Source: Sulfuricurvum sp. (GTDB lineage: Bacteria; Campylobacterota; Campylobacteria; Campylobacterales; Sulfurimonadaceae). Taken from it: a stretch of 64,000 bases of DNA. Positions 1,988 through 63,897 of this stretch are shown piece by piece. The stretch spans positions 263,796-327,795 of the forward strand of contig JAUYAU010000001.1 in assembly GCA_030693335.1 (NCBI GenBank), in the 5' to 3' direction. The stretch's first letter is position 1. Each line of letters opens with the position of its first letter. The notes beneath the pieces were generated by a model that saw nothing but the letters and a program-made list of their open reading frames with translations, did no database searches and had not been told where the DNA came from. The position numbers and the translations under genes are program-made.

Positions 1988-4900
1988 GTGGAATATCAAG
2001 ATTTATTACGATCATTTAAAGATAACTGCGGATTTGGTCTGATCGCCAATATAAAAAACCGTCCATCACATGAAACGCTTGAAAATGCGATTACAGCGTT
2101 AGAGCGAATGATGCATAGAGGCGCCGTCGCAGCAGATGGCAAAACAGGTGACGGAAGTGGCTTATTGCTCTCAATCCCTCAAGATTTTATGCGTGCATGC
2201 GCTGTGGATCATGGTATTGAATTACCGGAAATGTATGCAATTTCCGTTGTATTTACCCGTAATCCTGTGCAGTTAGAAGAACTAGAACGCATTTGTGCGA
2301 ATAATGACTTAAAAGTTGTCTTAGACCGTATTGTTCCGGTTGACACCAATGCACTTGGAGAACAGGCTTTACGCAGTCTTCCAGAGATTCATCATATTTT
2401 TATTACCCCTAATTCGTTGATGGCGAGCCGTCGTTTTGATGCATTGCTTTATCTGAGCCGCAAAGAAACAGAGCATCTATTTGTAGATGATCAAGATTTT
2501 TACATTGCTTCAATGTCTACGAGAGTCATTTCGTACAAAGGGCTCATTATGCCCACCCATATTAAAGAATTTTATACTGATTTCCAAAATGATAATTTCA
2601 AAATTTCATTCTCACTCTTTCATCAGCGTTTTTCAACAAATACTTTGCCAAAATGGCGTTTGGCGCAGCCGTTTCGCGCGGTTGCCCACAATGGTGAGAT
2701 TAACTCTGTTGAAGCAAATCGCTTTAATGTAGCAGTCAAATCAGAATCAATCAAAAGTGAAGTCTTTACGGATGAAGAGATCGCACGTTTATTGCCAATC
2801 CTGCAGCCACATGGTTCTGACAGCGCGAGTGCGGATAATTTCTTTGAGTTTTTGATCGCTAACGGCATGGATTTCTTTAAAGCCGCACGTGCCATTATTC
2901 CGGCCCCTTGGCAAAATGCTCCACAAATGGATCCGCAGTTGAGAGCATTTTATGAATATCATTCAACCGTTTTTGAAGCATGGGACGGTCCTGCTGCATT
3001 TTCATTAACCGATGGTCGCTATATAGGGTGTGTACTGGATCGTAACGGTCTTCGTCCATCCAAATACATTATAACGCACGACGACACACTGCTTATCGCG
3101 AGCGAATATGGAGTTATCGACATCCCTGAAGATAAGATCAAAGAGCGCGGACGCCTTCAATCGGGTCAAATGATCGGTTTGGATTTGAAATTTGGCAAGG
3201 TTTTAAAAGATGAAGATATTAATGAATATTTAAAGTCTTCAAATCCTTACATGACATGGCTTAATGATCATTTGATTTATTTGCAAGAGCACGTTGAAAA
3301 TCAATACGATACGAAATGCGTTTATACAGCGGATGAACTCATTCAGAGACAGCGTTATTATAATATTACACAAGAAATAGTGGAACAAGTCATTGAACCA
3401 ATCATACGTGACGGAAAAGAAGCGGTAGGCTCAATGGGTGATGATACTCCTCTGGCGGCTTTCAGCAGTGTTCAGCGCAACTTCAGTGACTTTTTCAAGC
3501 AAAGATTTGCTCAAGTCACTAATCCTCCGATTGATCCGATTCGTGAAAAAGCTGTTATGAGTTTAAACACAGGATTTGGAGAAACTCATAATATTCTTAA
3601 TGAGATCCCCTCTCATGCGAATCGGCTTAAAGCTATTTCTCCAATAATGCTAAAAGAAAAAATAGAGGTTTTGAAGTCATTTGGAGACAAAAAATCGCCA
3701 CGCTATAATCCTGCTTTTCACAATAAAGTGTTTTCTACGGCATTTAAGGGCTCATTACGAAGTGCTCTCAATGCATTGGTAGCAGAAGTGACTAAGGCCG
3801 TCAAAGAAGAAGGTGTACGTATTATCATCCTAGATGACAAAGAGTTTAACAAAGAGCATAAAACCATACCGATGTTGATGGCGGTAGGACGAATCAGTCG
3901 TGCTTTATTAGACGAAAAAGTTCGCCATTTGGGTTCAATTGTTGCGTGTACCAGTGAAGTGGTTGACTCTCATGGTGCTGCCACAATGCTCGCTTATGGG
4001 GCCAGTGCTGTTTATCCTACATTGCTTTTTTCCACGATAGCTGCACGGGTTAAGCAAAATAATGAAAACAATTGTGCAGAAGCATTCAAATCGGCTCAGT
4101 ATGCATTAAATGCCGGATTGTTGAAAATCATGTCAAAAATGGGTATTGCCACTATTGCTTCTTACCGAAATTCCGGTTTATTCGATGTTATCGGGCTCAG
4201 TCGTGAAATCGTAGATGATTGTTTTGGGGATTCACATGTAATGATTCCTGGTTTGACCTATGAAGACATCGATGAGCGGTTGAACAAAAATCATAAAGAA
4301 GCCTTTGATCAAAGTGGTTTTAATCGTATTTTTCCACTTAAAATCGGTGGATTTTACAAGTTTTACAATGGACAAGAGCATCACGATTTCCATCCGGATG
4401 TTATTCATGCCATTCATCGTGTTTCCAAAAGCGGTAAGCGGGAAGATTTTGATTACTTAACCTCTTTGGTCAATAAACGAGGTCAAAAATTTATTCGTGA
4501 TTTTTTTGAATTCAAATCTGATCGTGCAAGTATTGATATTTCAAAAGTTGAATCAAAAGAAAAGATATTCAAACGTTTTGCATCTGCTGCTATGAGTTTG
4601 GGTTCAATATCTCCTGAAGCTCATGAATGTTTAGCAGTTGCTATGAATACCATCGGAGCACAAAGTAATTCAGGTGAGGGCGGTGAAGATTCGGCACGTT
4701 TTGATACGTTAAAAAATTCTAAGATCAAGCAAGTCGCATCTGGACGTTTTGGGGTAACACCGGCTTATTTGCGCAGTGCCGATGAAATCCAGATTAAAGT
4801 AGCTCAAGGGGCAAAACCGGGTGAGGGCGGTCAGCTCCCAGGACATAAGGTTTCACCTTTGATTGCACGTTTACGCCATACAACACCGGGTGTGACGCTC

Positions 4901-6418
4901 ATCTCTCCTCCTCCGCATCATGATATTTATTCAATTGAAGATTTGGCACAGCTTATTTTTGACATGAAGCAAGTCAATCCAAGTGCAAAAGTGGCGGTTA
5001 AACTCGTTTCAGCCGCAGGTGTAGGTACGATTGCAGCAGGTGTTGCAAAAGCGTATGCGGATAAAATTATCATTTCCGGTGGGGATGGCGGGACAGGTGC
5101 TGCCCCGTTAACCTCCATTAAGTTTGCAGGTAATCCATGGGAACTTGGACTTTCTGAAGCGCACAATGCGCTTAAAGTAAATAATTTGCGTGGACTGGTT
5201 CATCTTCAAACCGATGGCGGATTAAAAACTGGTCAAGATGTTGTTAAGGCAGCTATGCTGGGGGCCGAAAGTTATGCATTCGGTACAGGTGCATTGACCA
5301 TTATCGGTTGTAAATTGCTGCGTATTTGTCATGTCAATAAATGTTCTGTTGGCATCGCGACACAAAATGAGCTTTTACGCAGTGAGTATTTTACAGGAAC
5401 GGTCGAACAACTCATTAATTATTTCACCTACTTAGCCGAAGATGTTCGTACTCTGATGGCAAAACTTGGATACGAGACGATGGAAGAATTGGTTGGACGC
5501 AGTGATTTATTGCAAGTCACCGATAATGATTTTGCACGTAAATTTGATTTTAGTAATATATTGCATCGCGAAGAGGGCGTTAATACGTGTCAAAGTGTTA
5601 GTAATAAGCCTTTTGATGATAATGAATTTGAAAAAGATGTGTTAAATGAGGCGATGGATGCGATTAAGAATCCAGAACGTCCTATTTTAATAACACGCTC
5701 TATTTGTAATGTCAATCGTAGTTTTGGTGCCCGAATAAGCGGTGAAATTGCTCAATTTTACGGTGATGTAGGATTAAAATCGGATACGATTCGCATTAAC
5801 TTGACAGGTATCGCCGGTCAGGCACTGGGCGCATTTTTAATTAACGGTATTTCTTTGCATGTAGAGGGTGTTGCCAATGATTATATTGGTAAAGGTATGC
5901 ACGGCGGCAAGATCGTCATTAAGTCAAAAAATGAGGGCGAAGCATTTGCCGCAGGCGGGAATACGTGTTTATACGGTGCAACCGGCGGTAAGCTGTTTAT
6001 TGCAGGGTGTGTCGGGGAACGTTTTGCGGTACGTAATTCAGGTGCGTTTGCGGTTGTTGAGGGAACTGGTGATAATGCTTGTGAGTACATGACAGGTGGT
6101 ATTGTAGTTATTTTAGGAAAGACAGGTATCAATTTTGGTGCCGGAATGACTGGCGGTGTAGCATTTGTATACGATGAAAAACACAGTTTTGTTGAAAATG
6201 TTAATCGTGAGCTTGTGGATGCTCTTCGCATTGACACGGATGACGGTGACGAAGCACGCCATTATTTAAAACGTCTTTTACAAGACTATGTGGCTGAGAC
6301 ACAGAGTATCAAAGCGCGAATGTTACTCAATAATTTCCGTGATGAGATCCGTAATTTTTGGATGGTTCGTCCGAAAAACTTAACCAAATTGCCACTTAAT
6401 CCTGATAAAGGGGACTAA
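1988..6418 (+). CDS. gltB: Glutamate synthase [NADPH] large subunit
   Basis: This cytoplasmic enzyme makes two glutamates from glutamine and 2-oxoglutarate (the GOGAT half of GS-GOGAT). The 1476-residue chain has the N-terminal glutaminase domain with nucleophile Cys14 (NCGFG), so a 13-residue propeptide should be removed. The FMN-binding synthase domain follows (GEGGEDSARF at about 896, PGEGGQLPGHKV at about 940). The 3Fe-4S cysteines are at about 1108-1122 (CKLLRICHVNKC), and a C-terminal glycine-rich beta-helix has repeated GG/GA turns. The start is GTG at 1988, preceded by AAGGTGA at 7 bases; it puts the catalytic Cys where the family needs it. It is followed 2 bases later by gltD. Confidence 0.97.
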   Translation: MEYQDLLRSFKDNCGFGLIANIKNRPSHETLENAITALERMMHRGAVAADGKTGDGSGLLLSIPQDFMRACAVDHGIELPEMYAISVVFTRNPVQLEELERICANNDLKVVLDRIVPVDTNALGEQALRSLPEIHHIFITPNSLMASRRFDALLYLSRKETEHLFVDDQDFYIASMSTRVISYKGLIMPTHIKEFYTDFQNDNFKISFSLFHQRFSTNTLPKWRLAQPFRAVAHNGEINSVEANRFNVAVKSESIKSEVFTDEEIARLLPILQPHGSDSASADNFFEFLIANGMDFFKAARAIIPAPWQNAPQMDPQLRAFYEYHSTVFEAWDGPAAFSLTDGRYIGCVLDRNGLRPSKYIITHDDTLLIASEYGVIDIPEDKIKERGRLQSGQMIGLDLKFGKVLKDEDINEYLKSSNPYMTWLNDHLIYLQEHVENQYDTKCVYTADELIQRQRYYNITQEIVEQVIEPIIRDGKEAVGSMGDDTPLAAFSSVQRNFSDFFKQRFAQVTNPPIDPIREKAVMSLNTGFGETHNILNEIPSHANRLKAISPIMLKEKIEVLKSFGDKKSPRYNPAFHNKVFSTAFKGSLRSALNALVAEVTKAVKEEGVRIIILDDKEFNKEHKTIPMLMAVGRISRALLDEKVRHLGSIVACTSEVVDSHGAATMLAYGASAVYPTLLFSTIAARVKQNNENNCAEAFKSAQYALNAGLLKIMSKMGIATIASYRNSGLFDVIGLSREIVDDCFGDSHVMIPGLTYEDIDERLNKNHKEAFDQSGFNRIFPLKIGGFYKFYNGQEHHDFHPDVIHAIHRVSKSGKREDFDYLTSLVNKRGQKFIRDFFEFKSDRASIDISKVESKEKIFKRFASAAMSLGSISPEAHECLAVAMNTIGAQSNSGEGGEDSARFDTLKNSKIKQVASGRFGVTPAYLRSADEIQIKVAQGAKPGEGGQLPGHKVSPLIARLRHTTPGVTLISPPPHHDIYSIEDLAQLIFDMKQVNPSAKVAVKLVSAAGVGTIAAGVAKAYADKIIISGGDGGTGAAPLTSIKFAGNPWELGLSEAHNALKVNNLRGLVHLQTDGGLKTGQDVVKAAMLGAESYAFGTGALTIIGCKLLRICHVNKCSVGIATQNELLRSEYFTGTVEQLINYFTYLAEDVRTLMAKLGYETMEELVGRSDLLQVTDNDFARKFDFSNILHREEGVNTCQSVSNKPFDDNEFEKDVLNEAMDAIKNPERPILITRSICNVNRSFGARISGEIAQFYGDVGLKSDTIRINLTGIAGQALGAFLINGISLHVEGVANDYIGKGMHGGKIVIKSKNEGEAFAAGGNTCLYGATGGKLFIAGCVGERFAVRNSGAFAVVEGTGDNACEYMTGGIVVILGKTGINFGAGMTGGVAFVYDEKHSFVENVNRELVDALRIDTDDGDEARHYLKRLLQDYVAETQSIKARMLLNNFRDEIRNFWMVRPKNLTKLPLNPDKGD

Positions 6419-6420
6419 TT

Positions 6421-7803
6421 ATGAGAGAATTTTTAACCATTGAACGTATTGATCCAACAAAACGCGGTGTCGTACAACGACTAAAAGACTTTAGTGAGAT
6501 ATATGAACCTGTTGACACGCATGAGGCCTCTTCGCAAAGTGATCGTTGTATTCAGTGCGGTGATCCATTTTGTCTTAACAAATGCCCATTGCACAACTAC
6601 ATTCCACAATGGCTAAAAGCAATTGCTGAAAAAGATCTGAAGTTTGCCTTCAACCTTTCAAATGAACCATCTCCATTTCCGGAAGTGATGGGGCGTGTAT
6701 GTCCGCATGACCGTTTATGTGAAGGAGATTGTACTTTAAATGATGGTCATGGTGCTATTACGATTGGTTCGATTGAAACTTTTATTAACGAAGAAGGGTT
6801 TAAACAAGGGCTTAAACCTTATTTTCCAGGAATTACTACCGATAAAAAAGTGGCAATTATCGGTTCAGGACCTGCTGGACTTTCTGCGGCAACCTATTTA
6901 TTGCGTTCAGGAATTTCTGTGACTATGTATGAACGTAGTGATCGTGCAGGCGGACTGTTGACCTATGGTATACCTAATTTTAAATTGGATAAAAAAATTG
7001 TTGATCGTCGCGTAGGCTTATTAGAAGAAGCCGGTCTAAAATTGGTTCTAAATTGTGAAGTGGGAAAAGACATTGAGTTTGATGAGATAGCAGATAAGCA
7101 TGATGCTCTTTTTCTTGGATTAGGTGCCACAAAGTCAAAAACTCCTAATATCGCAGGGGATCATGCATCCAATGTATACGTTGCGATGGAATATTTAACG
7201 GCTATCCAGCGTAAAAACTTTGGTTTGACGTACGATAAAAAATTTGATTTTAAAGACTTGGAAGTAGTGGTTATCGGGGGTGGTGATACCGCAATGGACT
7301 GTGTACGTACGGCTAAACGTGAAGGTGCGAAGAACGTAACATGTCTGTATCGTCGTGACGCACATAATATGCCGGGATCTCAGCGAGAATACAAAAATGC
7401 GATTGAAGAGGGTGTGGAATTTTCCTTTTATGCCTCTCCAAAAGAAGTCATCTTGAACGACAGCGGTAAAGCAGTCTCTGTTCATATGGCTAAAACCGTT
7501 CTTGGTGCAAAAGATGAAAGTGGACGCCAAAAAATGGAAGAAATTAAAGGTGCTGATTTTAATGTCAATGCGGATGTTGTCATTATGGCTCTCGGGTTTG
7601 ATCCGGCTGTTCCTTCATTTTTAGCTGAAAATGGTATTGCCGTAAATTCATGGGGCGGTATTGTCATAGACGATACGTTTCAAACCACAACTGCTGGGGT
7701 TTATGCAGGCGGTGATTGTTACCGTGGTGCTGATTTGGTTGTCACTGCTGCGTATGACGGACGTGAAGCTGCTCGTGCGATGGTTAAGTCGTTACTAAAA
7801 TAA
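6421..7803 (+). CDS. gltD: Glutamate synthase [NADPH] small subunit
   Basis: The beta subunit feeds electrons from NADPH through FAD and 4Fe-4S clusters to GltB. The 460-residue protein has two N-terminal cysteine clusters (CIQCGDPFCLNKC at about 41-53; CPHDRLCEGDC at about 94-104), the FAD Rossmann motif GSGPAGL at about 148, the NADPH motif GGGDTAMD at about 286, and a C-terminal GGDCYRGADLVVTA FAD-binding segment. The length is normal for GltD. It lies 2 bases after gltB, and its stop overlaps the next start by one base, so gltB-gltD and the inositol-monophosphatase-family gene form one transcriptional unit. Confidence 0.97.
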   Translation: MREFLTIERIDPTKRGVVQRLKDFSEIYEPVDTHEASSQSDRCIQCGDPFCLNKCPLHNYIPQWLKAIAEKDLKFAFNLSNEPSPFPEVMGRVCPHDRLCEGDCTLNDGHGAITIGSIETFINEEGFKQGLKPYFPGITTDKKVAIIGSGPAGLSAATYLLRSGISVTMYERSDRAGGLLTYGIPNFKLDKKIVDRRVGLLEEAGLKLVLNCEVGKDIEFDEIADKHDALFLGLGATKSKTPNIAGDHASNVYVAMEYLTAIQRKNFGLTYDKKFDFKDLEVVVIGGGDTAMDCVRTAKREGAKNVTCLYRRDAHNMPGSQREYKNAIEEGVEFSFYASPKEVILNDSGKAVSVHMAKTVLGAKDESGRQKMEEIKGADFNVNADVVIMALGFDPAVPSFLAENGIAVNSWGGIVIDDTFQTTTAGVYAGGDCYRGADLVVTAAYDGREAARAMVKSLLK

Positions 7804-8534
7804 TGAATCTGTTTATTGAAACGGTTATTGGTTCATGCAAAGAAGTGCGTGATTTCATAACCAATTCGTCAAATTCCACACTTTTTGATTCATTTGATCA
7901 AGGGCATGGCGGGGATATAAGCCATGGTTTTGATCTGTACGCAGAGAAAATTTTCTTTAAAAATCTGTCTCCTTTCGGTTCTATTTTTTCAGAAGAGAGC
8001 GGATGGATGTCTCCTCGCGGATCTCGTAATATTATTCTCGACCCCATTGACGGAAGTGATAATTTTTCTTCATCTTTCCCTTATTATGGTATTTCTGTCG
8101 CGTTAGAAGTGGATGGCAGTACCACCGAAGCAGTCGTTTGTAATCTTGCGAACGGAGATGTATTTGTACGTACGTGTGATGAATATTACCGTACGACTAT
8201 TGATAAATCCAATGAAAAAGCTTCAATAAACCATAATGGTAAAGCCAAAGTCGGTCTCTTTGAAAAAGCCCCTGAACATCCTGTTCTGGGCGAAAAATTA
8301 ATGCATAACAAATTAAAATATCGTTCTCCAGGTGCACTTGCTCTCTCATTGGCTTATGCTCCTTATGTTAAATATGTGTTATTTTTGGGTACAATGCGCT
8401 CGTTTGATATCCAAGCAGGCTTATATTTGAGCCAACACCTTTATGGGTTTCAAGATGAGAGGTATATTCTCTTGAGCTCGGATAAAGAAGTATTTGAACG
8501 GATACGTTTGATAGTTGAAAAGGAGTATTTTTGA
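7803..8534 (+). CDS. Inositol monophosphatase-family phosphatase
   Basis: This 243-residue enzyme belongs to the metal-dependent IMPase/FBPase/CysQ superfamily. Visible motifs are EESGW at about 63 (metal-binding Glu) and DPIDGSDNF at about 80-88 (metal-binding Asp pair and phosphate loop). The third motif (usually WDxAAG) appears as SFDIQAGLYL near 203, so the tryptophan is replaced. Substrates in the family include inositol phosphates, fructose bisphosphate and PAP, and nothing here fixes the choice. It overlaps gltD by one base and accD by four. I recall an IMPase-family gene beside accD in Campylobacter, so the linkage is probably ancestral. Confidence 0.8.
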   Translation: MNLFIETVIGSCKEVRDFITNSSNSTLFDSFDQGHGGDISHGFDLYAEKIFFKNLSPFGSIFSEESGWMSPRGSRNIILDPIDGSDNFSSSFPYYGISVALEVDGSTTEAVVCNLANGDVFVRTCDEYYRTTIDKSNEKASINHNGKAKVGLFEKAPEHPVLGEKLMHNKLKYRSPGALALSLAYAPYVKYVLFLGTMRSFDIQAGLYLSQHLYGFQDERYILLSSDKEVFERIRLIVEKEYF

Positions 8535-9373
8535 GTCTGTTTAACCTGTTCGGTGACTCCGAGAAAAAGAAACAACCTACTAAAAGTGAGGCCCCTTCTC
8601 ACTGGGTAAAATGTACTTCATGTCAATCCTTAATGTACTACAAAGAGATGGAGAAGCAAAACCATGTTTGTCCAAAATGCGGATTTCATTTACGTATAGG
8701 TGTCAAAGAGCGCTTAGCCATTATTGCAGATGAAGGAAGTTTCGTAGAGTTTGATGCTTCATTAAAGCCGATTGACCCTTTGGCATTTGTGGATAAAAAG
8801 AGTTATGCTGCCCGTATTCAAGAAGGGTATGAAAAAAATGGACGCTATTCATCGGTTGTCAGCGGTGAATGTACCATTAATTCTGTTCCTGTCCAACTAG
8901 TCGTTTTTGATTTTAACTTTATGGGCGGATCATTGGGCTCTGTTGAAGGTGAAAAAATTGTACGGGCTATTAATCGTGCAATCGAAAAACGCCAAGGTGT
9001 TATCATTGTCAGCGCCAGCGGCGGTGCACGTATGCAAGAGAGTACTTTTTCTTTAATGCAAATGTCGAAGACTTCTGCGGCGCTTGCACGTTTGGCACAA
9101 GCAAAGCTTCCTTATATTTCGTTACTTACTGACCCTACCATGGGTGGTGTTAGTGCATCCTTTGCAACCTTAGGTGACATTATTATTGCCGAACCTGGTG
9201 CTTTGGTCGGATTTGCAGGGCAACGTGTTATTAAGCAGACCATTGGGTCAGATTTACCGGATGGCTTTCAGAGAGCTGAATTCTTACTTGAAAAAGGGTC
9301 TATTGATATGATTGTAGAGCGTAATGAACTCAAAGATACATTAAGCGATCTGTTAACCCTTCTTCTTCCTTAA
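8531..9373 (+). CDS. accD: Acetyl-CoA carboxylase carboxyltransferase beta subunit
   Basis: AccD pairs with AccA (not in this window) to move the carboxyl group from biotin to acetyl-CoA, making malonyl-CoA for fatty acid synthesis. The 280-residue protein has the N-terminal four-cysteine zinc ribbon (CTSC at about 28-31, CPKC at about 47-50) and the crotonase-like core with GGSLGSVEGEK and SASGGARMQE, typical of the CoA-binding oxyanion loops. Translation appears to start at TTG 8531, inside the stop of the preceding gene (TTGA overlap), with AAGGAG only 4 bases upstream. That spacing is short, so expression may rely on coupling. Confidence 0.96.
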   Translation: MSLFNLFGDSEKKKQPTKSEAPSHWVKCTSCQSLMYYKEMEKQNHVCPKCGFHLRIGVKERLAIIADEGSFVEFDASLKPIDPLAFVDKKSYAARIQEGYEKNGRYSSVVSGECTINSVPVQLVVFDFNFMGGSLGSVEGEKIVRAINRAIEKRQGVIIVSASGGARMQESTFSLMQMSKTSAALARLAQAKLPYISLLTDPTMGGVSASFATLGDIIIAEPGALVGFAGQRVIKQTIGSDLPDGFQRAEFLLEKGSIDMIVERNELKDTLSDLLTLLLP

Positions 9374-54792: not shown

Positions 54793-56028
54793 ATGCCAAG
54801 TTTTAAAGGGTATTATGAAACGAAGAATCTTGATCCTTTTACACTTGAAAAAGCCTACGAAGCGTTAAAATATGAGCGTGGTACGATTGGCTACTATGAT
54901 CTGCCAAGTTCATCTATATCTCTATGTGGGGATGTTAAAGAATCATTATTAAGCAGTACGGTTTTTTTTAATACCATTGCGGTTGTAGGTATTGGTGGTT
55001 CTTCTTTGGGGATAAAAGCAATTGACCGTTTGCTTAGAGCTTCAACTCCCCATGCCAAAAAAATTGTCTATTTTGAAAATTCTGATCCAATCAGTATTGC
55101 CTATGAAGCTTCACGAATTGAGTTTGCTAAAACTCTTTTTGTTGTAATTTCAAAATCAGGCGGAACGGTTGAAACGCTTTCCATTTTCAAATTTCTAATT
55201 TCAAAATTTAAAATTGATTTGCATAATTCTGCTCAAATTGTCGTAGTAAGCGACGATGGTTCAGTTCTAAGCCAATTTGCAGATTATTACGCTTTAAAAC
55301 GTTTTGTGATTCCTTCAAACGTCGGGGGAAGATTTTCCGTACTTAGTGCGGTTGGTGTTATTCCCTTGGTCTTAGCAGGATTTAATGTAGAGGGTGTTCT
55401 TGAAGGAGCTCAAAACTTTGCTGAGAATTTTTGGGCACGTAAAGAGGAACATTTACTTCAAAAAGCAGCATTTTATGTTGGTAATGCCAAAGTTTCTCCT
55501 ATTAACGTGTTATTTTCCTATTCTGATACATTTGAAGAATTTGGGAAATGGGTCGTTCAAATATGGGGAGAGTCATTAGGGAAGCGAAATACACGTGGTG
55601 AGCGTGTCGGATTAACACCGATTTCTTTGATTGGTTCAGTTGATCAACATTCATTTTTACAGCTGATTATTGAGGGACCTCTTAATAAAACGGTTACCTT
55701 TATGCATATCGAACATTCTCGTGATGAGTTAATGATTCCAAAACTATCACTCCCGTTTCTAGAAAAATCAGATTTTGTTAATGGTGAATCATTTAACACC
55801 CTCATTAATGCGCAGTGCCAAGCTACAATGCAAAGTGTGCTTCAAAGCGGTGTCAGCATAGATGAAATTACATGGGAATGTATTGATGAAGTGTCTGTTG
55901 GTAAGATGATTATGTATTATGAACTATTAACATCTGCTGCAGGTGCTCTTTTTGAGATAAATACCTATGACCAACCGGGTGTTGAACATGGAAAGAAAAT
56001 ATTAGAAGGTTACTTTTCAAATAAATAA
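54793..56028 (+). CDS. pgi: Glucose-6-phosphate isomerase
   Basis: PGI interconverts glucose 6-phosphate and fructose 6-phosphate. The 411-residue protein is of the short bacterial/archaeal-like PGI length, with AVVGIGGSSLGIKAID (about 75-90), the phosphate-binding VISKSGGTVETLS (about 118-130), NVGGRFSVLSAVG (about 177) and the C-terminal QPGVEHGKK (about 396-404). It starts 1 base after gap and so is cotranscribed. It supplies hexose phosphate to the downstream alpha-glucan genes, which have a separate promoter after a 258-base gap. Confidence 0.94.
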   Translation: MPSFKGYYETKNLDPFTLEKAYEALKYERGTIGYYDLPSSSISLCGDVKESLLSSTVFFNTIAVVGIGGSSLGIKAIDRLLRASTPHAKKIVYFENSDPISIAYEASRIEFAKTLFVVISKSGGTVETLSIFKFLISKFKIDLHNSAQIVVVSDDGSVLSQFADYYALKRFVIPSNVGGRFSVLSAVGVIPLVLAGFNVEGVLEGAQNFAENFWARKEEHLLQKAAFYVGNAKVSPINVLFSYSDTFEEFGKWVVQIWGESLGKRNTRGERVGLTPISLIGSVDQHSFLQLIIEGPLNKTVTFMHIEHSRDELMIPKLSLPFLEKSDFVNGESFNTLINAQCQATMQSVLQSGVSIDEITWECIDEVSVGKMIMYYELLTSAAGALFEINTYDQPGVEHGKKILEGYFSNK

Positions 56029-56286: not shown

Positions 56287-58794
56287 ATGAAAGCAGTTGT
56301 TATGGCAGGAGGATTTGGTACTCGTATTCAGCCTCTTACAAATTCTATTCCCAAGCCAATGTTACCAATTATGAATCGGCCTATGATGGAGCATACTATT
56401 GTAAGTCTCAAAAATTTGGGAATAACTGAGTTTATTATTCTTCTGTATTTCAAACCCAATGTAATCAAAGATTATTTCAAAGATGGCAGTAAATGGGGAA
56501 TCAACATCACCTATGTGGTGCCAGACGATGATTATGGAACTGCGGGTGCAGTTAAAAAAGCGCAAGAGACTATCGGGGATGAAAACTTTATTATCATTAG
56601 CGGTGATCTAGTAACTGATTTTAATTTTCAACAGATTTTTGATTATCATAACGCCAAAAAATCCAAACTGACTATTACCCTTACATCGGTTGAAAATCCT
56701 CTTGAATTTGGGGTTGTCATAGCCAATGAAGAGGGAAAAATCGAAAAATTTCTCGAAAAACCTAGCTGGGGTGAAGTGTTTAGTGACACCATCAATACAG
56801 GTATTTACATTATTGAACCTGAGATTCTTAATTATATTCCTAAAAATGAAAATTTTGATTTTGCAAAAGACCTTTTTCCTCTTTTGATGCGTCAGGGAAT
56901 TGAGCTTATGGCTGGACATGCGCAGGGGTATTGGCGTGATGTCGGAAATCCTGAAAGCTATCGTGATGTGTATGAGGATATTCTTGCCGGAAAGATCAAG
57001 TTTGAAATTTCTGGAGATGTGATCAAATATCCTGATGGTGTATTGATATGCGAAGAGGATAATACTCTGGATGATAGTGTTGATGTTGTCGGTATCGTCG
57101 TAATTGGGCGAAATGTAACCGTTAAAAAAGGCTCGAAGTTAAGCAATGTTGTTTTAGGTGACAATGTAACCATCGGCACATCTTCAAAAATTTCTAATAG
57201 TGTTGTTTGGAATGATGTTGAAATTGGTAAAAATGCTAAATTGGATGGCTGTGTCATATGCAGTAATAACCGTATTGGGAAAAATGTCACTGCAAAATCA
57301 GGATTGATTTTAGCACAAGGGTGTGAGATCGGGGAACTTGTTACCATAGAAAAAGATGTTACGATTTGGCCATACAAAGTGATTGAGGATGCTTCTATCG
57401 TCAGTCGAAGTGTTATTTTGGGAAGCAAATATAAAAATTCTATCTTTGAAGACGGGATGGTCATCGGCAAATCAAATGTAGAACTGTCATGTGAGATGGC
57501 AACAAAGCTTGCCGAAGCATTCGGGGCACAGTTGCCAGTAGGTTCAACTGTATTGGTTTCACGTCACTATGACAAAAGCTCTCGAATGCTTAAACGGGCA
57601 TTTTTAGGCGGTTTACTTGCATCTGGGGTAAATGTTATCGATTATAATGCTATTCCATCAGCGGTTATGCGGTGTAGTCTATCGTCACACGATGAGTATA
57701 CTGCAGGAGTCCATTTTCATCAAAAGATTGATGACCCCACCAGCAGTGTCATTACGTTTTATAACAGTGAAGCGCTTCGCATAAATAATGACGTAGCCAA
57801 AAAAATTGAGAAAGCCTTTTTTAAAGAGGTATTTAGACGGGTTGATTACACGCAAATCGGACAGATTCATGAGCTGGATCATAAACGTGAGCATCATCAA
57901 TACAAAATAGGGATGGAAAAACTGTTGCAGTCACACCAATTCAAGTGTCTTGATTGCCGTATAGCGGTAGATCTGATGCATGGATTGACTTCAGAAGTTT
58001 TCCCTGATATTTTGAACGATTTAGGGGTTGAACATATTATGTTCAACGCTTATACAGACGAACAGCGACTTTCAAATATCAATACACTGACAAAGCGCTC
58101 TTACGAGGATATGGGTGCTGTGATTCAGGCGCTTAAACTGGATGCCGGCTTTATACTTTATCCTCATGGTCAACGTTTGGATATTCTTTGTGATGAAGGG
58201 ATTCCTTTGAGTAAACAAAGCGCTTTGTATGTTGTTATGACGCTTTTAAATATGGAAGCTAAAGCCACTGGAGCCAAAAAGAGAGTCTTCTTGCCGACAT
58301 GGGCTGCGGACATTGTTTATTTTGACAGCCTTGATATTGAACGCGGTCAGTATGCAAATTTTAAAGCATCTAAAATGAAGAGCTATGATTTAGTTACCAC
58401 GGGCGAAGGCAACTTTACCTTTACCGAGTTTGCAACGCATAGAGATTCAATGTACGCAACCCTGAAAATATTGGAGATGATGGTTACGCATGGTGCCAAA
58501 CTTTCTGAAATGATTGATTCTCTTCCCCATTTTTTTTACACTACGATTCAACTTCCTTGTACTCAGGCACTAAAGGGAAAAATGATGCGTAAGTTTCTGG
58601 AAGACTCTAAGGGTAAAAAATCGTCAACCCTTGATGGAGTCAAAATATGGTTGGCTGAAAACGACTGGGTATTGATGATTCCTGATCAATATAATGACTC
58701 ATTAAATCTGACGATTCAAGCACAAACGGATGAAAAAGGAGAAGCCTATAAAGCACTCTACATCAGTAAAATCGAGGAGTGGTCAAAATTGTGA
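56287..58794 (+). CDS. Sugar-1-phosphate nucleotidyltransferase fused to a degenerate phosphohexomutase domain
   Basis: This is an 835-residue three-part protein. Residues 1-235 are a sugar nucleotidyltransferase with AGGFGTRIQPLT, PKPMLPI, the catalytic SGDLVTDF and NTGIYIIEPE, all intact. Residues about 240-395 are hexapeptide left-handed beta-helix repeats (VVLGDNVTIG, NRIGKNV). Residues about 405-835 match the phosphoglucomutase/phosphomannomutase fold, but its motifs are lost: TASHNP becomes FHQKIDDP (near 477), the metal loop DGDxDR becomes YPHGQR (near 624), GExSGH becomes GEGNFTF (near 705) and RPSGTEP becomes IPDQYND (near 798). The C-terminal part is therefore probably regulatory or structural. 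The donor (ADP-, GDP- or UDP-hexose) is unknown; the glgA context makes ADP-glucose worth testing. Confidence 0.9.
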   Translation: MKAVVMAGGFGTRIQPLTNSIPKPMLPIMNRPMMEHTIVSLKNLGITEFIILLYFKPNVIKDYFKDGSKWGINITYVVPDDDYGTAGAVKKAQETIGDENFIIISGDLVTDFNFQQIFDYHNAKKSKLTITLTSVENPLEFGVVIANEEGKIEKFLEKPSWGEVFSDTINTGIYIIEPEILNYIPKNENFDFAKDLFPLLMRQGIELMAGHAQGYWRDVGNPESYRDVYEDILAGKIKFEISGDVIKYPDGVLICEEDNTLDDSVDVVGIVVIGRNVTVKKGSKLSNVVLGDNVTIGTSSKISNSVVWNDVEIGKNAKLDGCVICSNNRIGKNVTAKSGLILAQGCEIGELVTIEKDVTIWPYKVIEDASIVSRSVILGSKYKNSIFEDGMVIGKSNVELSCEMATKLAEAFGAQLPVGSTVLVSRHYDKSSRMLKRAFLGGLLASGVNVIDYNAIPSAVMRCSLSSHDEYTAGVHFHQKIDDPTSSVITFYNSEALRINNDVAKKIEKAFFKEVFRRVDYTQIGQIHELDHKREHHQYKIGMEKLLQSHQFKCLDCRIAVDLMHGLTSEVFPDILNDLGVEHIMFNAYTDEQRLSNINTLTKRSYEDMGAVIQALKLDAGFILYPHGQRLDILCDEGIPLSKQSALYVVMTLLNMEAKATGAKKRVFLPTWAADIVYFDSLDIERGQYANFKASKMKSYDLVTTGEGNFTFTEFATHRDSMYATLKILEMMVTHGAKLSEMIDSLPHFFYTTIQLPCTQALKGKMMRKFLEDSKGKKSSTLDGVKIWLAENDWVLMIPDQYNDSLNLTIQAQTDEKGEAYKALYISKIEEWSKL

Positions 58795-60827
58795 TGAATA
58801 CTCCGTCTCTTAATCTCTCTTTTTTCTGGCACATGCATCAGCCTGATTACAGAGGAAGCGATGGAGTGATGAGTATGCCATGGGTCTTTTTACATGCGAT
58901 TAAAGATTATTATGAGATGCCATGGCTGCTGAGCCGGTACAAAGGTCTGAGGGCTACTTTCAATATCACTGCACCGCTTATTGAACAGCTTAATCTTTAT
59001 CGTGATCCGTTAAAAAACGATTATTTTTTGTCATTATGGGAAGTGCACCCCAATAGACTTGACGAATCATCAAAAGCCTGGCTGATAAAGACGTGTAAAT
59101 CAACTCAATATGACACAATGGTGAAGCCCTTGGAGCGTTTTGATGTCTTATATCATCAGCATTATTACAGCGATGAAGATTTGATCGATTTCGAGATGCT
59201 TTTCATGTTGTCATGGTGCGGTAACTATCTGCGTCAGGAAAACAGTGTGGTAAGAGAACTGTTTAGCAAAGGGAGAGGCTATAGTCAGTCTGATAAAAAA
59301 GAGTTGCTTCATACCCTCTGCCATTTTTTAGAATCCATTCTCCCTTTTTATGCGAAACTGCAAAATGAGGGGATTATTTCGGTCTCAACGACTCCGTATA
59401 ACCATCCGATTCTTCCACTGTTACTGGATATCAATAATGCCCGTCTTGCTAATGTCCATACGGCACTTCCGGACAATCCGCTTTCTCTCAAAGACGATGC
59501 TGTTGAACAAGTATCTAGGTCTATCGCTTTATATGAGAAAACATTTGGAAGAAAACCGACCGGATTTTGGCCCGCAGAGGGTGCCGTCGATGAGGCAAGT
59601 ATCGATATTTACAAGCAGCACGGGCTTGGGTGGATTGCCACCGATGAAGCTATTTTATTTCGATCATTAGAAGATGACTCACGTTCAAATTTATATAAAC
59701 CATACCGCTACAAAGAAATGACGATCGGCTTTAGGGATCATGGTTTAAGCGATTTAATTGGATTTACCTATCGGTTTAAATCGGGGCATGATGCAACGGA
59801 ACATTTTATGCAAAGTTTACAGACCATCGCATACGAAACTCAAAATCCTACCGTATTTGTCATTTTAGATGGGGAAAATGCGTGGGAGTTTTTTGAAAAT
59901 AATGCGTATGACTTTTTTACGGCACTTTATAGCCGGTTATCACTAACACACTGGTGCTCAACAATTACTATGCAAGAAGCATCACAGCTTAAAAGCAACG
60001 GTATTCTCGATAATATTGCTCCTGGAAGCTGGATACACGGTACGTTTGACACATGGTCTGGGCATCCTGAAAAAAACCGTGCCTGGGAGTTGATTTATCA
60101 GACAAAACGCGATGTAGAAAATTTTTCGGGTATTATTGGTGACGAAATAGCCCAAAAGATCAAATTTCATTTTTTGGCATCCGAGTGCAGTGACTGGTTT
60201 TGGTGGTATGGGGATGATCATGTTACCGAATTTTCCATGGAATTTGATGCTTTGTTTCGAGAACATCTTATTGAAATATACCGCTTGCTCGAAATGCAGC
60301 CGCCCTCAGATTTGTTTGACTCAATTGTAGGACAAAAAGACAGTACCTCATTTTGGATAAAACCTCAACGATCAATCACCCCCTATATTGATGGTAAGAA
60401 CAGTGCATTTTGTGATTGGCTTGGGTGCGGAAGCGTTGATGAACGTAAAATGTTTTCTACCATGGATCGTGTTCGCGGACCTATTGACGTTATTCATTAT
60501 GGACACAGTTCATCATCGATTTTTTTAGCTTTTGAAGGAGATATGACAGCATTTAAGCGTGAAGAGTCATTTTTAGAGATCACCTTTGAAGAGAGCGGAG
60601 AACGACTCTCATTTGCTTTGAGGGGGAAATATCAAAACAATGGTGATGAATGTATCATAGATGAGAGAGTTGAAATTGCATTATCGAGTATTCATTTCAA
60701 AGGGTACGATGCGGTTCATCTTCGTTTTGAGATTGTACAGGGAAATAGGATTGTTCAGACGATGCCGGGATTTGGATCGTTACTGATAGATTTGAATGAG
60801 ACGTATGCCCATAATTGGTTTATTTAG
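58794..60827 (+). CDS. GH57 alpha-glucan hydrolase / glucanotransferase-type enzyme
   Basis: This 677-residue enzyme belongs to glycoside hydrolase family 57, retaining enzymes acting on alpha-glucans. Motif 1 is HMHQP (about 13), motif 2 STTPYNHPILPLL (about 200), motif 3 contains the nucleophile Glu in FWPAEGAVDE (about 257-266) and motif 4 the acid/base Asp in ILDGENAWEFF (about 357-367). The closest subgroup by eye is the amylopullulanase/alpha-amylase type, with a C-terminal beta domain. No signal peptide is seen, so it acts on internal glucan. I use ATG 58794, overlapping the fusion stop (TGATG); GTG 58791 is possible, with GAGGAG 11 bases upstream. Confidence 0.88.
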   Translation: MNTPSLNLSFFWHMHQPDYRGSDGVMSMPWVFLHAIKDYYEMPWLLSRYKGLRATFNITAPLIEQLNLYRDPLKNDYFLSLWEVHPNRLDESSKAWLIKTCKSTQYDTMVKPLERFDVLYHQHYYSDEDLIDFEMLFMLSWCGNYLRQENSVVRELFSKGRGYSQSDKKELLHTLCHFLESILPFYAKLQNEGIISVSTTPYNHPILPLLLDINNARLANVHTALPDNPLSLKDDAVEQVSRSIALYEKTFGRKPTGFWPAEGAVDEASIDIYKQHGLGWIATDEAILFRSLEDDSRSNLYKPYRYKEMTIGFRDHGLSDLIGFTYRFKSGHDATEHFMQSLQTIAYETQNPTVFVILDGENAWEFFENNAYDFFTALYSRLSLTHWCSTITMQEASQLKSNGILDNIAPGSWIHGTFDTWSGHPEKNRAWELIYQTKRDVENFSGIIGDEIAQKIKFHFLASECSDWFWWYGDDHVTEFSMEFDALFREHLIEIYRLLEMQPPSDLFDSIVGQKDSTSFWIKPQRSITPYIDGKNSAFCDWLGCGSVDERKMFSTMDRVRGPIDVIHYGHSSSSIFLAFEGDMTAFKREESFLEITFEESGERLSFALRGKYQNNGDECIIDERVEIALSSIHFKGYDAVHLRFEIVQGNRIVQTMPGFGSLLIDLNETYAHNWFI

Positions 60828-60836
60828 GAGAAGGTA

Positions 60837-62879
60837 ATGAATAAAAAAACGACACTGCTATTTGGAATTCATATGCACCAACCTGTTGATAATTTTCAGT
60901 GGGTAATCGAGCATGGTGTAGAGGTATGTTATGGCCCTTTTTTCGATGTACTCAGCCGGTATCCCCAATTTCGTTTCGCTGTGCATTGCAGTGGATGGCT
61001 GATGGAACAGATTGCGAAAAATCATACGAAACTCTATGCACAAATCCTATCTCTCGCACAAAAAGGGTCTATTGAATTTTTCAGTGCGGGTTACTATGAA
61101 CCAATTTTGAGTGTTATACCCTCGCAAGACCGAGTTACTCAGATCAATATGCTCAATGACTCTATTGAGTCGGCTTTTAAACAAAGACCAAAAGGTCTGT
61201 GGCTTACGGAGCGGGTGTGGGAGTCATCACTAATTCCGGATTTGGAAAAAAGCGGTATTGACTATACGGTAATGGACGATTACCATTTTCAGTGTGCCGG
61301 TTTCGATCAAGAAATACTGGACGGATATTATATGAGTGAAGAGGGAGGAAAAAATATTGGACTTTTCCCTATCAGTAAAAAACTGCGCTATGCCATACCT
61401 TTTTTAAATGTTGAGACAGCCATTGAGGCAATCAAATCGTATAACCGCGAAGATGATTCCGCAGCGATTATTTTTGATGATGCCGAAAAGTTCGGTATGT
61501 GGCCCGGCACCCATGAATGGGTTTATGAAAAAGGGTGGTTAGAGAAGTTTATCCAAGCGGTCCTTGCCGACGAATCGATAGAAACACTTCATTATGGCGA
61601 ATATATCTCCAGACATAAAACACGAGGCATTGCTTATTTACCGAATGTTTCGTATTATGAGATGGGGGAGTGGAGTCTTCGCGCCGATGATGCACTAAAA
61701 CTGGAAGCATTTAAACATGAAATGGGAAGCAAGCGTTATGATGAAGAAGGAGTTAAGTTTTTAAAAGGGGGTATCTGGAAAAACTTTTTTGTGAAGTATG
61801 AGGAGAGCAATCGGCTTCACAAACGGATGCTCGAACTCTCAGGTGTGCGTAAAAAGGTTAAAAATCCCCATTTCGATACGGCGCTGTATAAATTTCAAAC
61901 CAATGATGCACTTTGGCATGGGGTTTTTGGTGGACTTTATTTGCCAAACCTGCGGGACAATGCCTATCGCTATCTTATAGAAGGTGAAAATATCCGTTAT
62001 GGCAATAAGAGTTTGATCGCAACGGATCAAAATGAGCTGGATGGATACGACAAGGTCAAAATAGTAACACCCAAATCAATCTTTCGATTTGACAGTGCAC
62101 ATGGCGGACAGCTTGTCGAATTTGATGATAGAACGGGATGTTTTAACTGGCAAAATACATTAACACGCCGTAAAGAGGCGTATCATCATAAGATATTTGA
62201 AGAGCCTTCGGCAGTGGAACAAACACCACAGCATGACGGTATCGATACGATTCACAATAGTGCCATCGAGGTGGATGATGCCCTTCGTGACGCTTTGATA
62301 TATGACTGGTATCTTAAAAATTCGTTCATTGACCATATCAGTGACGATACGTTTGGAGTTGAAAATTTTCGGCATTGTAATTTTAGAGAATACGGAGATT
62401 TTGTCAATCAGCCCTTTGAGATGACCTATAATCAAAAAAAAGTAACGTTTAGCCGTGAGGGCGGACTTTATTTTCCGCATAAAGTCTCTGCACGACTGGA
62501 AAAGACTTTTACCCCTAAACCAAATGGTCTTGATTTTGAGATTGGATTCTCCAGTGAGTCTGAGGGCAATTTTAGTTATGTATTAGAACACAATTTTCAT
62601 TTTGCAAATTATGATACTCTCCTTATAAATGGTGTGCCATTGGATAGACAGCAAGAAAGCATTCCAACGAATAAACTGGAAATTATTGATACCGACTTAA
62701 AGAAGAAAATCATTATTGAGCTAAATCAACCGTTTTCTTTGTATTTTTATCGCCATGAAACCTTATCCCAAAGTGAACAAGGGTTTGATTTGACAGTGCA
62801 AAATATCAGTTTCGCGATGGTTGTTCCTTTTTGTAAAGAGTTTGCACTATCTGGCGCTTTGGAGGTTCTTGATGTCTGA
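60837..62879 (+). CDS. GH57 4-alpha-glucanotransferase (TLGT-like)
   Basis: This 680-residue enzyme closely follows the Thermococcus litoralis 4-alpha-glucanotransferase plan. It has the HMHQP motif (His12), the nucleophile Glu125 in WLTERVWES, the acid/base Asp214 in IFDDAEKFGMWPG (TLGT uses E123 and D214), and a C-terminal DUF1925/DUF1926-like beta domain (DALIYDWYLKNSFIDH near 485). It transfers alpha-1,4-glucan segments, so it can lengthen or recycle maltodextrins. No signal peptide, so cytoplasmic. It starts 9 bases after the first GH57 with GGAGAAGG upstream, showing tight co-expression. Confidence 0.9.
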   Translation: MNKKTTLLFGIHMHQPVDNFQWVIEHGVEVCYGPFFDVLSRYPQFRFAVHCSGWLMEQIAKNHTKLYAQILSLAQKGSIEFFSAGYYEPILSVIPSQDRVTQINMLNDSIESAFKQRPKGLWLTERVWESSLIPDLEKSGIDYTVMDDYHFQCAGFDQEILDGYYMSEEGGKNIGLFPISKKLRYAIPFLNVETAIEAIKSYNREDDSAAIIFDDAEKFGMWPGTHEWVYEKGWLEKFIQAVLADESIETLHYGEYISRHKTRGIAYLPNVSYYEMGEWSLRADDALKLEAFKHEMGSKRYDEEGVKFLKGGIWKNFFVKYEESNRLHKRMLELSGVRKKVKNPHFDTALYKFQTNDALWHGVFGGLYLPNLRDNAYRYLIEGENIRYGNKSLIATDQNELDGYDKVKIVTPKSIFRFDSAHGGQLVEFDDRTGCFNWQNTLTRRKEAYHHKIFEEPSAVEQTPQHDGIDTIHNSAIEVDDALRDALIYDWYLKNSFIDHISDDTFGVENFRHCNFREYGDFVNQPFEMTYNQKKVTFSREGGLYFPHKVSARLEKTFTPKPNGLDFEIGFSSESEGNFSYVLEHNFHFANYDTLLINGVPLDRQQESIPTNKLEIIDTDLKKKIIIELNQPFSLYFYRHETLSQSEQGFDLTVQNISFAMVVPFCKEFALSGALEVLDV

Positions 62880-63897
62880 AATCCGTTATAATCGGATGTA
62901 TGACACGCATGTCATCATTGCTCCAGAGCGTCTTCATCGACCGGAGTGTGAGATTGATCTTAAAACTATTGAGTCATCGGACATTTGTCCTTTTTGTGAG
63001 GGGAATGAGTCGATGACACCTCCGGAAATTTTTGCTATACGCGGTGATGGAACGTTTGCGAATGAAGGTGGCTGGAAGACTCGTGTTGTTCCCAATCTCT
63101 ATAAAGCAGTTAAAATTGAAACTCCGTATCAGCATCATTACGGAATGTTTGAATACTGGGAGGGCTTTGGTGCGCATGAAATTGTAATCGATACACCTAC
63201 CCATCATATTTCTATGATGCAATGGAATGTGAGTGAGGTTGGGTTTTGGCTTAAAACATTGCGAGAACGATCAGGGGATTTGCGACGTGATCACCGTATC
63301 GCCTATTTGTCTCTTTTTAAAAATGAAGGGTATCTCTCCGGGTCTACACAAACCCATTCGCATACACAGATTATCGGTTTGCCTATTATTCCCAGAGAAG
63401 ATGCACAGCGTTATAGACGTGAATATGAGCATTATAAAGCTACAGGAAAGGCAATGCTTGAGTTAATGGTGCATCAAGAGGAAGAAGATGGAACTCGTAT
63501 TGTTTCAAAAAAAGGCGACTTTACTGCGTATTGTCCTTATGCTAGTGCATATCCCTTTGAAGTGATGATCAGTTCACAAAAAGAATTGGGTCAAATTGAT
63601 AGCTTGAGTGATCCATCGATTGAAGATATTTCACAGTTACTTTTATCGACGTTAAAACGTTTGGAACGTCAGCTGGGATGTTTTCATTTTAATCTCTGCG
63701 TGTTGACTCCACCTCTACAAGAAGGGACTATAGGGTATGATGAGTTTGGCAGTATTGATAAATACAGCAGGTTTGCCATAAGGATTATGCCACGACTCTA
63801 TCGTCATGGAGGGTTTGAAGTCAATACAGGTGTATTGATCAATCCTGTTGTACCTGAAATTGCGGCCAAATTGCTTCGGGAGAGCTCAGATGTCTAA
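62872..63897 (+). CDS. GalT-fold nucleotidyl(transfer)ase, ADP-glucose phosphorylase-like
   Basis: This 341-residue HIT-superfamily protein related to galactose-1-phosphate uridylyltransferase has CPFC at about 39-42 followed by [19 protein letters not shown] (about 103-112) and the active-site segment [12 protein letters not shown] with nucleophile His164. The catalytic motif is HSHTQ rather than the GalT HPHGQ. I recall that the plant ADP-glucose phosphorylase branch has a similar HSHxQ motif and a CPFC-GNE start. In a glgA cluster, ADP-glucose turnover fits better than galactose use. ATG 62872 has GGAGG 6 bases upstream and overlaps the GH57 gene by 8 bases; the track start 62821 is rejected. 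Confidence 0.85.

Follow-up and report, generated by a model that had tools for sequence, protein, structure and literature searches.

A nucleotidyltransferase fused to a pseudo-phosphohexomutase is a candidate GlgC replacement in Campylobacterota

The window, meaning the whole 64,000-nucleotide stretch analysed, encodes an 835-aa protein (56287..58794; plus strand, as are all window features below) in which a nucleotidyltransferase, a beta-helix and a pseudo-phosphohexomutase are fused, as delineated from the ORF, Pfam, an AlphaFold2 model and Foldseek. The fusion probably replaces GlgC, making the NDP-glucose used by GlgA, with the dead mutase half serving as a regulatory or assembly domain. 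The replacement of GlgC is the stronger point and was absent from the first-pass annotation of this DNA, which had dwelt on the mutase half.

Domain layout and the degenerate mutase loops

The NTP_transferase domain (residues 2-233, 56290..56985; PF00483, 191 bits) has an intact catalytic signature and is followed by a left-handed beta-helix linker (residues 256-354, 57052..57348; PF25084/PF00132). The mutase-fold half of about 450 aa contains degenerate versions of domain I (residues 392-516, 57460..57834; PF02878, PGM_PMM_I, 51 bits), domain II (residues 545-634, 57919..58188; PF02879, PGM_PMM_II, 30 bits) and domain III (residues 695-747, 58369..58527; PF02880, PGM_PMM_III, 23 bits), each of which exceeds its Pfam gathering cut-off in the profile comparison that the first-pass annotation had suggested. 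Domain IV (approximately residues 756-833, 58552..58785) was located using AlphaFold2 and Foldseek and has the family hallmark KGxxMR near its start. The sugar-1-phosphate nucleotidyltransferase signature (GGxGTRxxPLT..PKP, metal Asp, EKP, D218) is present in the transferase half, where an alignment of 68 homologues shows little or no variation at GGxGTRxxPLT...PKP, D107, D111, E157-K158-P159 and D218, in keeping with the earlier reading that this half retains its active residues.

An AlphaFold2 model was built from 68 homologues, with pLDDT mostly 80-95 across the mutase half. The transferase half and the beta-helix were modelled less confidently, with several blocks below 60 pLDDT, and no claim is made on the relative placement of the two halves for that reason. 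The best Foldseek match of the mutase half was the Thermococcus phosphoglucomutase 9du5 (TM-score 0.86 normalised by target, E 7e-33, 22% identity), and in the model the complete four-domain phosphohexomutase fold is retained, as had been proposed. The archaeal-type phosphoglucomutase/phosphomannomutase enzymes 9du5 and 1wqa share this four-domain fold (target-normalised TM-scores 0.85-0.86, 22% identity), but their catalytic, metal and phosphate loops are intact, whereas those of the fusion are lost.

The loops were placed using phmmer against solved mutases and MAFFT against the GlmM and PMM of the same genome; with phmmer, residues 392-831 align to Thermococcus and Pyrococcus mutases over almost the full length. 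The phosphoserine loop (T/S)xSHNP of active mutases is replaced by FHQKIDDP (residues 477-484, 57715..57738; phmmer, MAFFT), with Lys480-Ile481 in place of Ser-His, and the metal loop DGDGDR by YPHGQR (residues 625-630, 58159..58176; phmmer, MAFFT), in which all three Asp are gone and the last Arg is retained. The sugar loop GExSGH reads GEGNFTF (residues 706-712, 58402..58422; phmmer, family comparison), with a 2-residue deletion relative to archaeal mutases, and the phosphate loop RxSGTEP reads IPDQYND (residues 798-804, 58678..58698; phmmer, family comparison), the replacement IPDQY carrying no positive charge. Two further residues are missing, the domain-1 Arg (DIRG) and the Lys that follows the Ser loop. 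All four motif losses are where the first-pass annotation had located them, and an alternative alignment restoring the catalytic Ser/His was rejected, none being recovered with phmmer or with MAFFT using the genome's own GlmM and PMM. Judged by these motifs, the mutase half is predicted to be catalytically dead and unable to do mutase chemistry; mutase activity is not needed from the fusion, because the same genome encodes three other mutases.

Family breadth and selection on the dead half

Degeneracy had been taken as a feature of a single protein; it is instead a family trait, common to Actinomycetota. All 107 relatives recovered (107/107) are degenerate in the mutase loops wherever these are covered, on which ground a sequencing or frameshift error was rejected; one row of the comparison, L089, repeats the window gene in clipped form. 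The related-locus search returned 80 Campylobacterota loci, and the fusion is present in 44 of the 298 Campylobacterota genomes drawn, representing 21 of 58 genera. Relatives in Actinomycetota were recovered by tblastn on plasmids at 28-31% identity over 96-100% of the length. Four Actinomycetota proteins at this identity, the phylum's members including the Streptomyces plasmid relatives, are also degenerate, with the nucleophile, His and phosphate-binding Arg gone and the first metal-loop Asp retained. Shared with the Actinomycetota members in the MAFFT alignment are KGxxMR, LP before domain III, a PxG(E/Q)R metal loop and a P(D) phosphate loop, and in the tree a branch with 100/99 support separates the pseudo-mutases from three canonical mutases, which are the only outgroups; the branches are long. 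Given the shared motifs and this branch, loss of the loops most likely predates the split of the Campylobacterota and Actinomycetota fusion proteins. The Streptomyces protein gave no useful match to viral contigs.

It is very unlikely that the mutase half is still catalytic through a changed mechanism or on another substrate. The whole fold is retained, and two pseudo-loops and KGxxMR are strongly conserved, as an active site would be, but the nucleophile, the His, all three metal Asp and the phosphate-binding Arg have been lost together, and the Actinomycetota relatives have the same losses except for the first metal-loop Asp.

Within the mutase half, conservation of the pseudo-loops lies at the 88th (phosphate), 81st (sugar), 69th (metal) and 28th (Ser) percentiles, and GN[FY]xF of the pseudo sugar loop is strongly conserved in Campylobacterota. 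Raw pN and pS are quoted for the fusions, dS being saturated between most homologues; when the window gene is compared with close relatives sharing 75-88% aa identity, pN in the mutase half is 0.08-0.18 and pS is 0.74-0.79. Purifying selection acts strongly on the mutase half, and the earlier claim that selection maintains it is upheld by these values and the conservation data. Recent gene decay was rejected by the selection test and the breadth of the family. Besides the full copy (match 6001-9101, ORF from 6554), locus L003 has another, incomplete match to the fusion gene immediately upstream (6001-6600), which may reflect either a partial duplication or faulty assembly.

Three genomes of the window's genus encode pseudomutases that stand alone, with no transferase half (L130:6741-8120, L131:6889-8367 and L132:6879-8357). 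They are 459-492 aa long, 65-68% identical to the mutase half of the fusion at locus L079 and have the same degenerate motifs, and their host genomes carry the fusion as well. Their dN/dS is 0.12-0.13 at unsaturated distances, so the dead domain is kept even without the transferase. The copies in L130 and L131 have similar neighbours. These data bear on whether the mutase half is a structural remnant that only keeps the protein soluble or oligomeric, which we consider decidedly unlikely: mean conservation is higher in the transferase half (0.84) than in the mutase half (0.66), as a remnant would have it, but the mutase half has been kept across two phyla under purifying selection with conserved pseudo-loops, and the copies free of a transferase evolve at dN/dS of about 0.13.

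Gene cluster and co-occurrence with GlgA

Upstream of the fusion is the glucose-6-phosphate isomerase gene pgi (54793..56028; PF00342). Downstream are a GH57 family gene whose frame overlaps the end of the fusion gene (58779..60827; PF03065, 163 bits), a second GH57 gene of the alpha-amylase/4-alpha-glucanotransferase type (60837..62879; PF03065, PF09094, PF09095) and a GalT-like nucleotidyltransferase gene (62821..63897; PF01087). The genes form a large cluster for glycogen and central carbon metabolism, in the order GAPDH, Pgi, fusion, GH57, GH57, GalT-like and then, past the window, GlgA, GlgA and GlgB, followed on the contig (L085) by Pgm (opposite strand), GlgP, Zwf, Pgl, Edd, Eda and a phosphorylase-kinase-like gene; beyond the window, several gene names were assigned from sequence reading and the rest were Pfam-tested. 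The two adjacent glgA genes (L085:1644-3119 and 3119-4612) are diverged, and many genomes of the phylum likewise have two. The GlgP-like phosphorylase (L085:8371-10011) is only 546 aa long, and Pfam matches it weakly, over a portion of the profile. Near it, at the end of this glycogen/Entner-Doudoroff cluster, a 1067-aa protein (L085:14644-17847) has GH15 and phosphorylase b kinase C-terminal (KPBB_C) domains and is a bacterial phosphorylase-kinase alpha/beta-like protein.

In 86 fusion loci, with counts bounded by flank length, the neighbours include the first GH57 (77/86), GalT (50/86), the second GH57 (46/86) and GlgA1 (34/86). The S. kujiense chromosome (G312) has the same order, fusion-GH57-GH57-GalT-GlgA-GlgA-GlgB. 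An additional S. kujiense copy of the fusion on plasmid pSULKU01 (L123:12035-14572) adjoins patatin-like and phospholipase A genes, and the plasmid has no annotated glycogen genes; a mobile plasmid-borne function was rejected, as this copy is additional to that of the chromosomal cluster. On a Streptomyces plasmid, genes annotated as a maltotransferase-domain protein, treS and galU are located 5.6 kb from the relative encoded there.

Of the 298 Campylobacterota genomes, exactly the same 44 have the fusion and a strong GlgA (Glyco_transf_5 match with E below 1e-60), and the other 254 have neither (Fisher p ~1e-53, uncorrected for shared ancestry). Seven further genomes with weak Glyco_transf_5 matches (E 1e-8 to 1e-3) were excluded from the GlgA count. 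A genomic tie to glucan enzymes, in line with the first-pass annotation, is borne out by this co-occurrence (44/44) and by the GH57 neighbour in 77 of the 86 loci. Genus g2 has some genomes with both genes and others with neither, so the fusion and GlgA have been gained or lost together more than once. For 35 genomes with coordinates read for both genes, 3.8-11.4 kb separate the fusion from glgA, and the co-occurrence partly mirrors physical linkage.

GlgC (TIGR02091) was detected in none of the 298 Campylobacterota genomes (0/298), and the identical search detects it in 7 of 14 control genomes. The window's own genome has five PF00483 members, namely RmlA, ManC-cupin, GalU and GlmU, named from their sequences, and the fusion, with no GlgC among them. 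The fusion scores 134.8 bits to TIGR02091 (glgC), below the curated cut-off of 424.9. With the fusion accompanying GlgA in 44/44 genomes and GlgC present in none, production of GlgA's nucleotide sugar by the fusion is the simplest account.

Counting against a GlgC replacement, the transferase half scores nearer to mannose-1-P guanylyltransferase (258 bits) than to glgC (135 bits) among the NCBIfam models, all below cut-off; the GalT-like neighbour tracks GlgA nearly as well (42/44); and the S. kujiense plasmid copy is an orphan. GalU could be a supplier of UDP-glucose if GlgA accepts it. We consider it unlikely that the product of the transferase half is GDP-mannose or UDP-glucose destined for the envelope or an exopolysaccharide, with an incidental link to glycogen. 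The nearest family models and structures are indeed mannose-1-P guanylyltransferases and a UDP-glucose pyrophosphorylase, the nearest solved relatives including GDP-mannose and UDP-glucose pyrophosphorylases, and the orphan plasmid copy fits such a role, as does the annotation of Streptomyces SCO1388, which has the same architecture (PMC5982138). Yet the fusion accompanies GlgA in all 44 genomes and is found in none without it, ManC-cupin and GalU are already in the genome, and the share of sco1388 in GMP activity is probably small according to the same paper.

The GalT-like neighbour (62821-63897) is itself very unlikely to be the supplier of ADP-glucose, with the fusion as an accessory. Its gene product may be an ADP-glucose phosphorylase and not an enzyme of the Leloir type, and such a GalT-like phosphorylase is known in plants. 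The GalT-like gene is present in 42 of the 44 GlgA genomes, but 2 GlgA genomes are without it at the cut-off and 2 genomes with it are without GlgA, whereas the fusion matches exactly; phosphorolysis, moreover, normally proceeds towards the sugar-1-P. GalT-like homologues with one in-frame stop were reported in G264, G219 and G203 (TGA) and in G134 (TAG).

Proposed role and related systems

For the fusion as GlgC replacement, the N-terminal half would join glucose-1-phosphate to an NTP, probably ATP, with UTP or GTP less likely, and the resulting NDP-glucose would feed the two GlgA encoded downstream. The product is likeliest to be ADP-glucose, given that K[TS]GGLADV, a motif of GT5 synthases, is present in both GlgA; UDP-glucose is the less likely product, kept in view because the nearest structures include a solved UTP-glucose-1-phosphate uridylyltransferase, 8x7s (tlr0611). 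The C-terminal pseudo-mutase, non-catalytic, would set the oligomer shape and/or regulate the transferase half via the inter-domain cleft. That it binds a ligand or a partner is suggested by its conserved pseudo-loops and by the stand-alone copies. Canonical binding of sugar phosphate is unlikely, because the phosphate and metal ligands are gone; the idea of sugar-phosphate sensing at the old site is unsupported, since the phosphate loop has lost its Arg/Ser/Thr, the metal Asps and the domain-1 Arg are missing, and few residues of the sugar loop remain. Another pocket or interface in the mutase half is as likely.

GlgC shares with the fusion the transferase superfamily, the beta-helix and, as we infer, the place in the pathway before GlgA, but it is without the 450-aa mutase-fold half, and the fusion reaches only 135 bits to TIGR02091 (cut-off 425). 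The combination of transferase and mutase fold is that of the SCO1388-type NDP-sugar transferase/phosphomannomutase fusions. By architecture, CDD cd05805 is the probable family of these fusions, including SCO1388. In PMC5982138, SCO1388 of Streptomyces coelicolor is described as appearing bifunctional, and disrupting its gene with the other two candidate genes left the phenotypes assayed unchanged. SCO1388 is likened here by architecture, and the present sequences are non-catalytic by their motifs, which would argue against the "bifunctional" label if SCO1388 belongs to this fusion family. A phosphohexomutase survey leaves out cd05805 as one of several groups specific for other sugars (PMC9426568), and the relevant portions of PMC5982138 and PMC9426568 make no mention of catalytic motif loss. 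The open-licence literature yielded no paper that presents the fusion as a pseudoenzyme or assigns it the pyrophosphorylase step of glycogen synthesis in Campylobacterota.

Among vertebrate proteins, the mutase-fold PGM5/aciculin is reported to be without enzyme activity and retained for protein interactions (PMC5570346). PGM5 is an animal protein that stands alone and is closely paralogous to PGM1, whereas the dead domain here is an ancient, fused bacterial one. In GMPPA/GMPPB and VTC1/KJC, GDP-mannose pyrophosphorylases are paired with a non-catalytic regulatory relative, and the complexes 7d72 and 8yre are among the structure matches of the fusion. The dead partner in those pairs is a transferase; in the fusion it is a mutase domain on the same chain.

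More tentatively, and as a possibility we hold to be short of probable, the system may be a previously unrecognised glycogen route of Campylobacterota in which a different pyrophosphorylase with a pseudo-phosphohexomutase control unit does the GlgC step, and the stand-alone copies are separate regulatory subunits. If so, the fold of the neighbouring step (glucose-1-P/glucose-6-P) would have been recycled into a regulator. The fusion would fill a gap, the source of sugar nucleotide in GlgA-bearing Campylobacterota, with GlgC in none of the 298 genomes sampled. The annotation "bifunctional guanylyltransferase/phosphomannomutase" would change to a likely pseudoenzyme fusion in at least two phyla, and a pseudo-mutase fused to the enzyme that consumes the mutase product is proposed as a clean case of an enzyme turned regulator.
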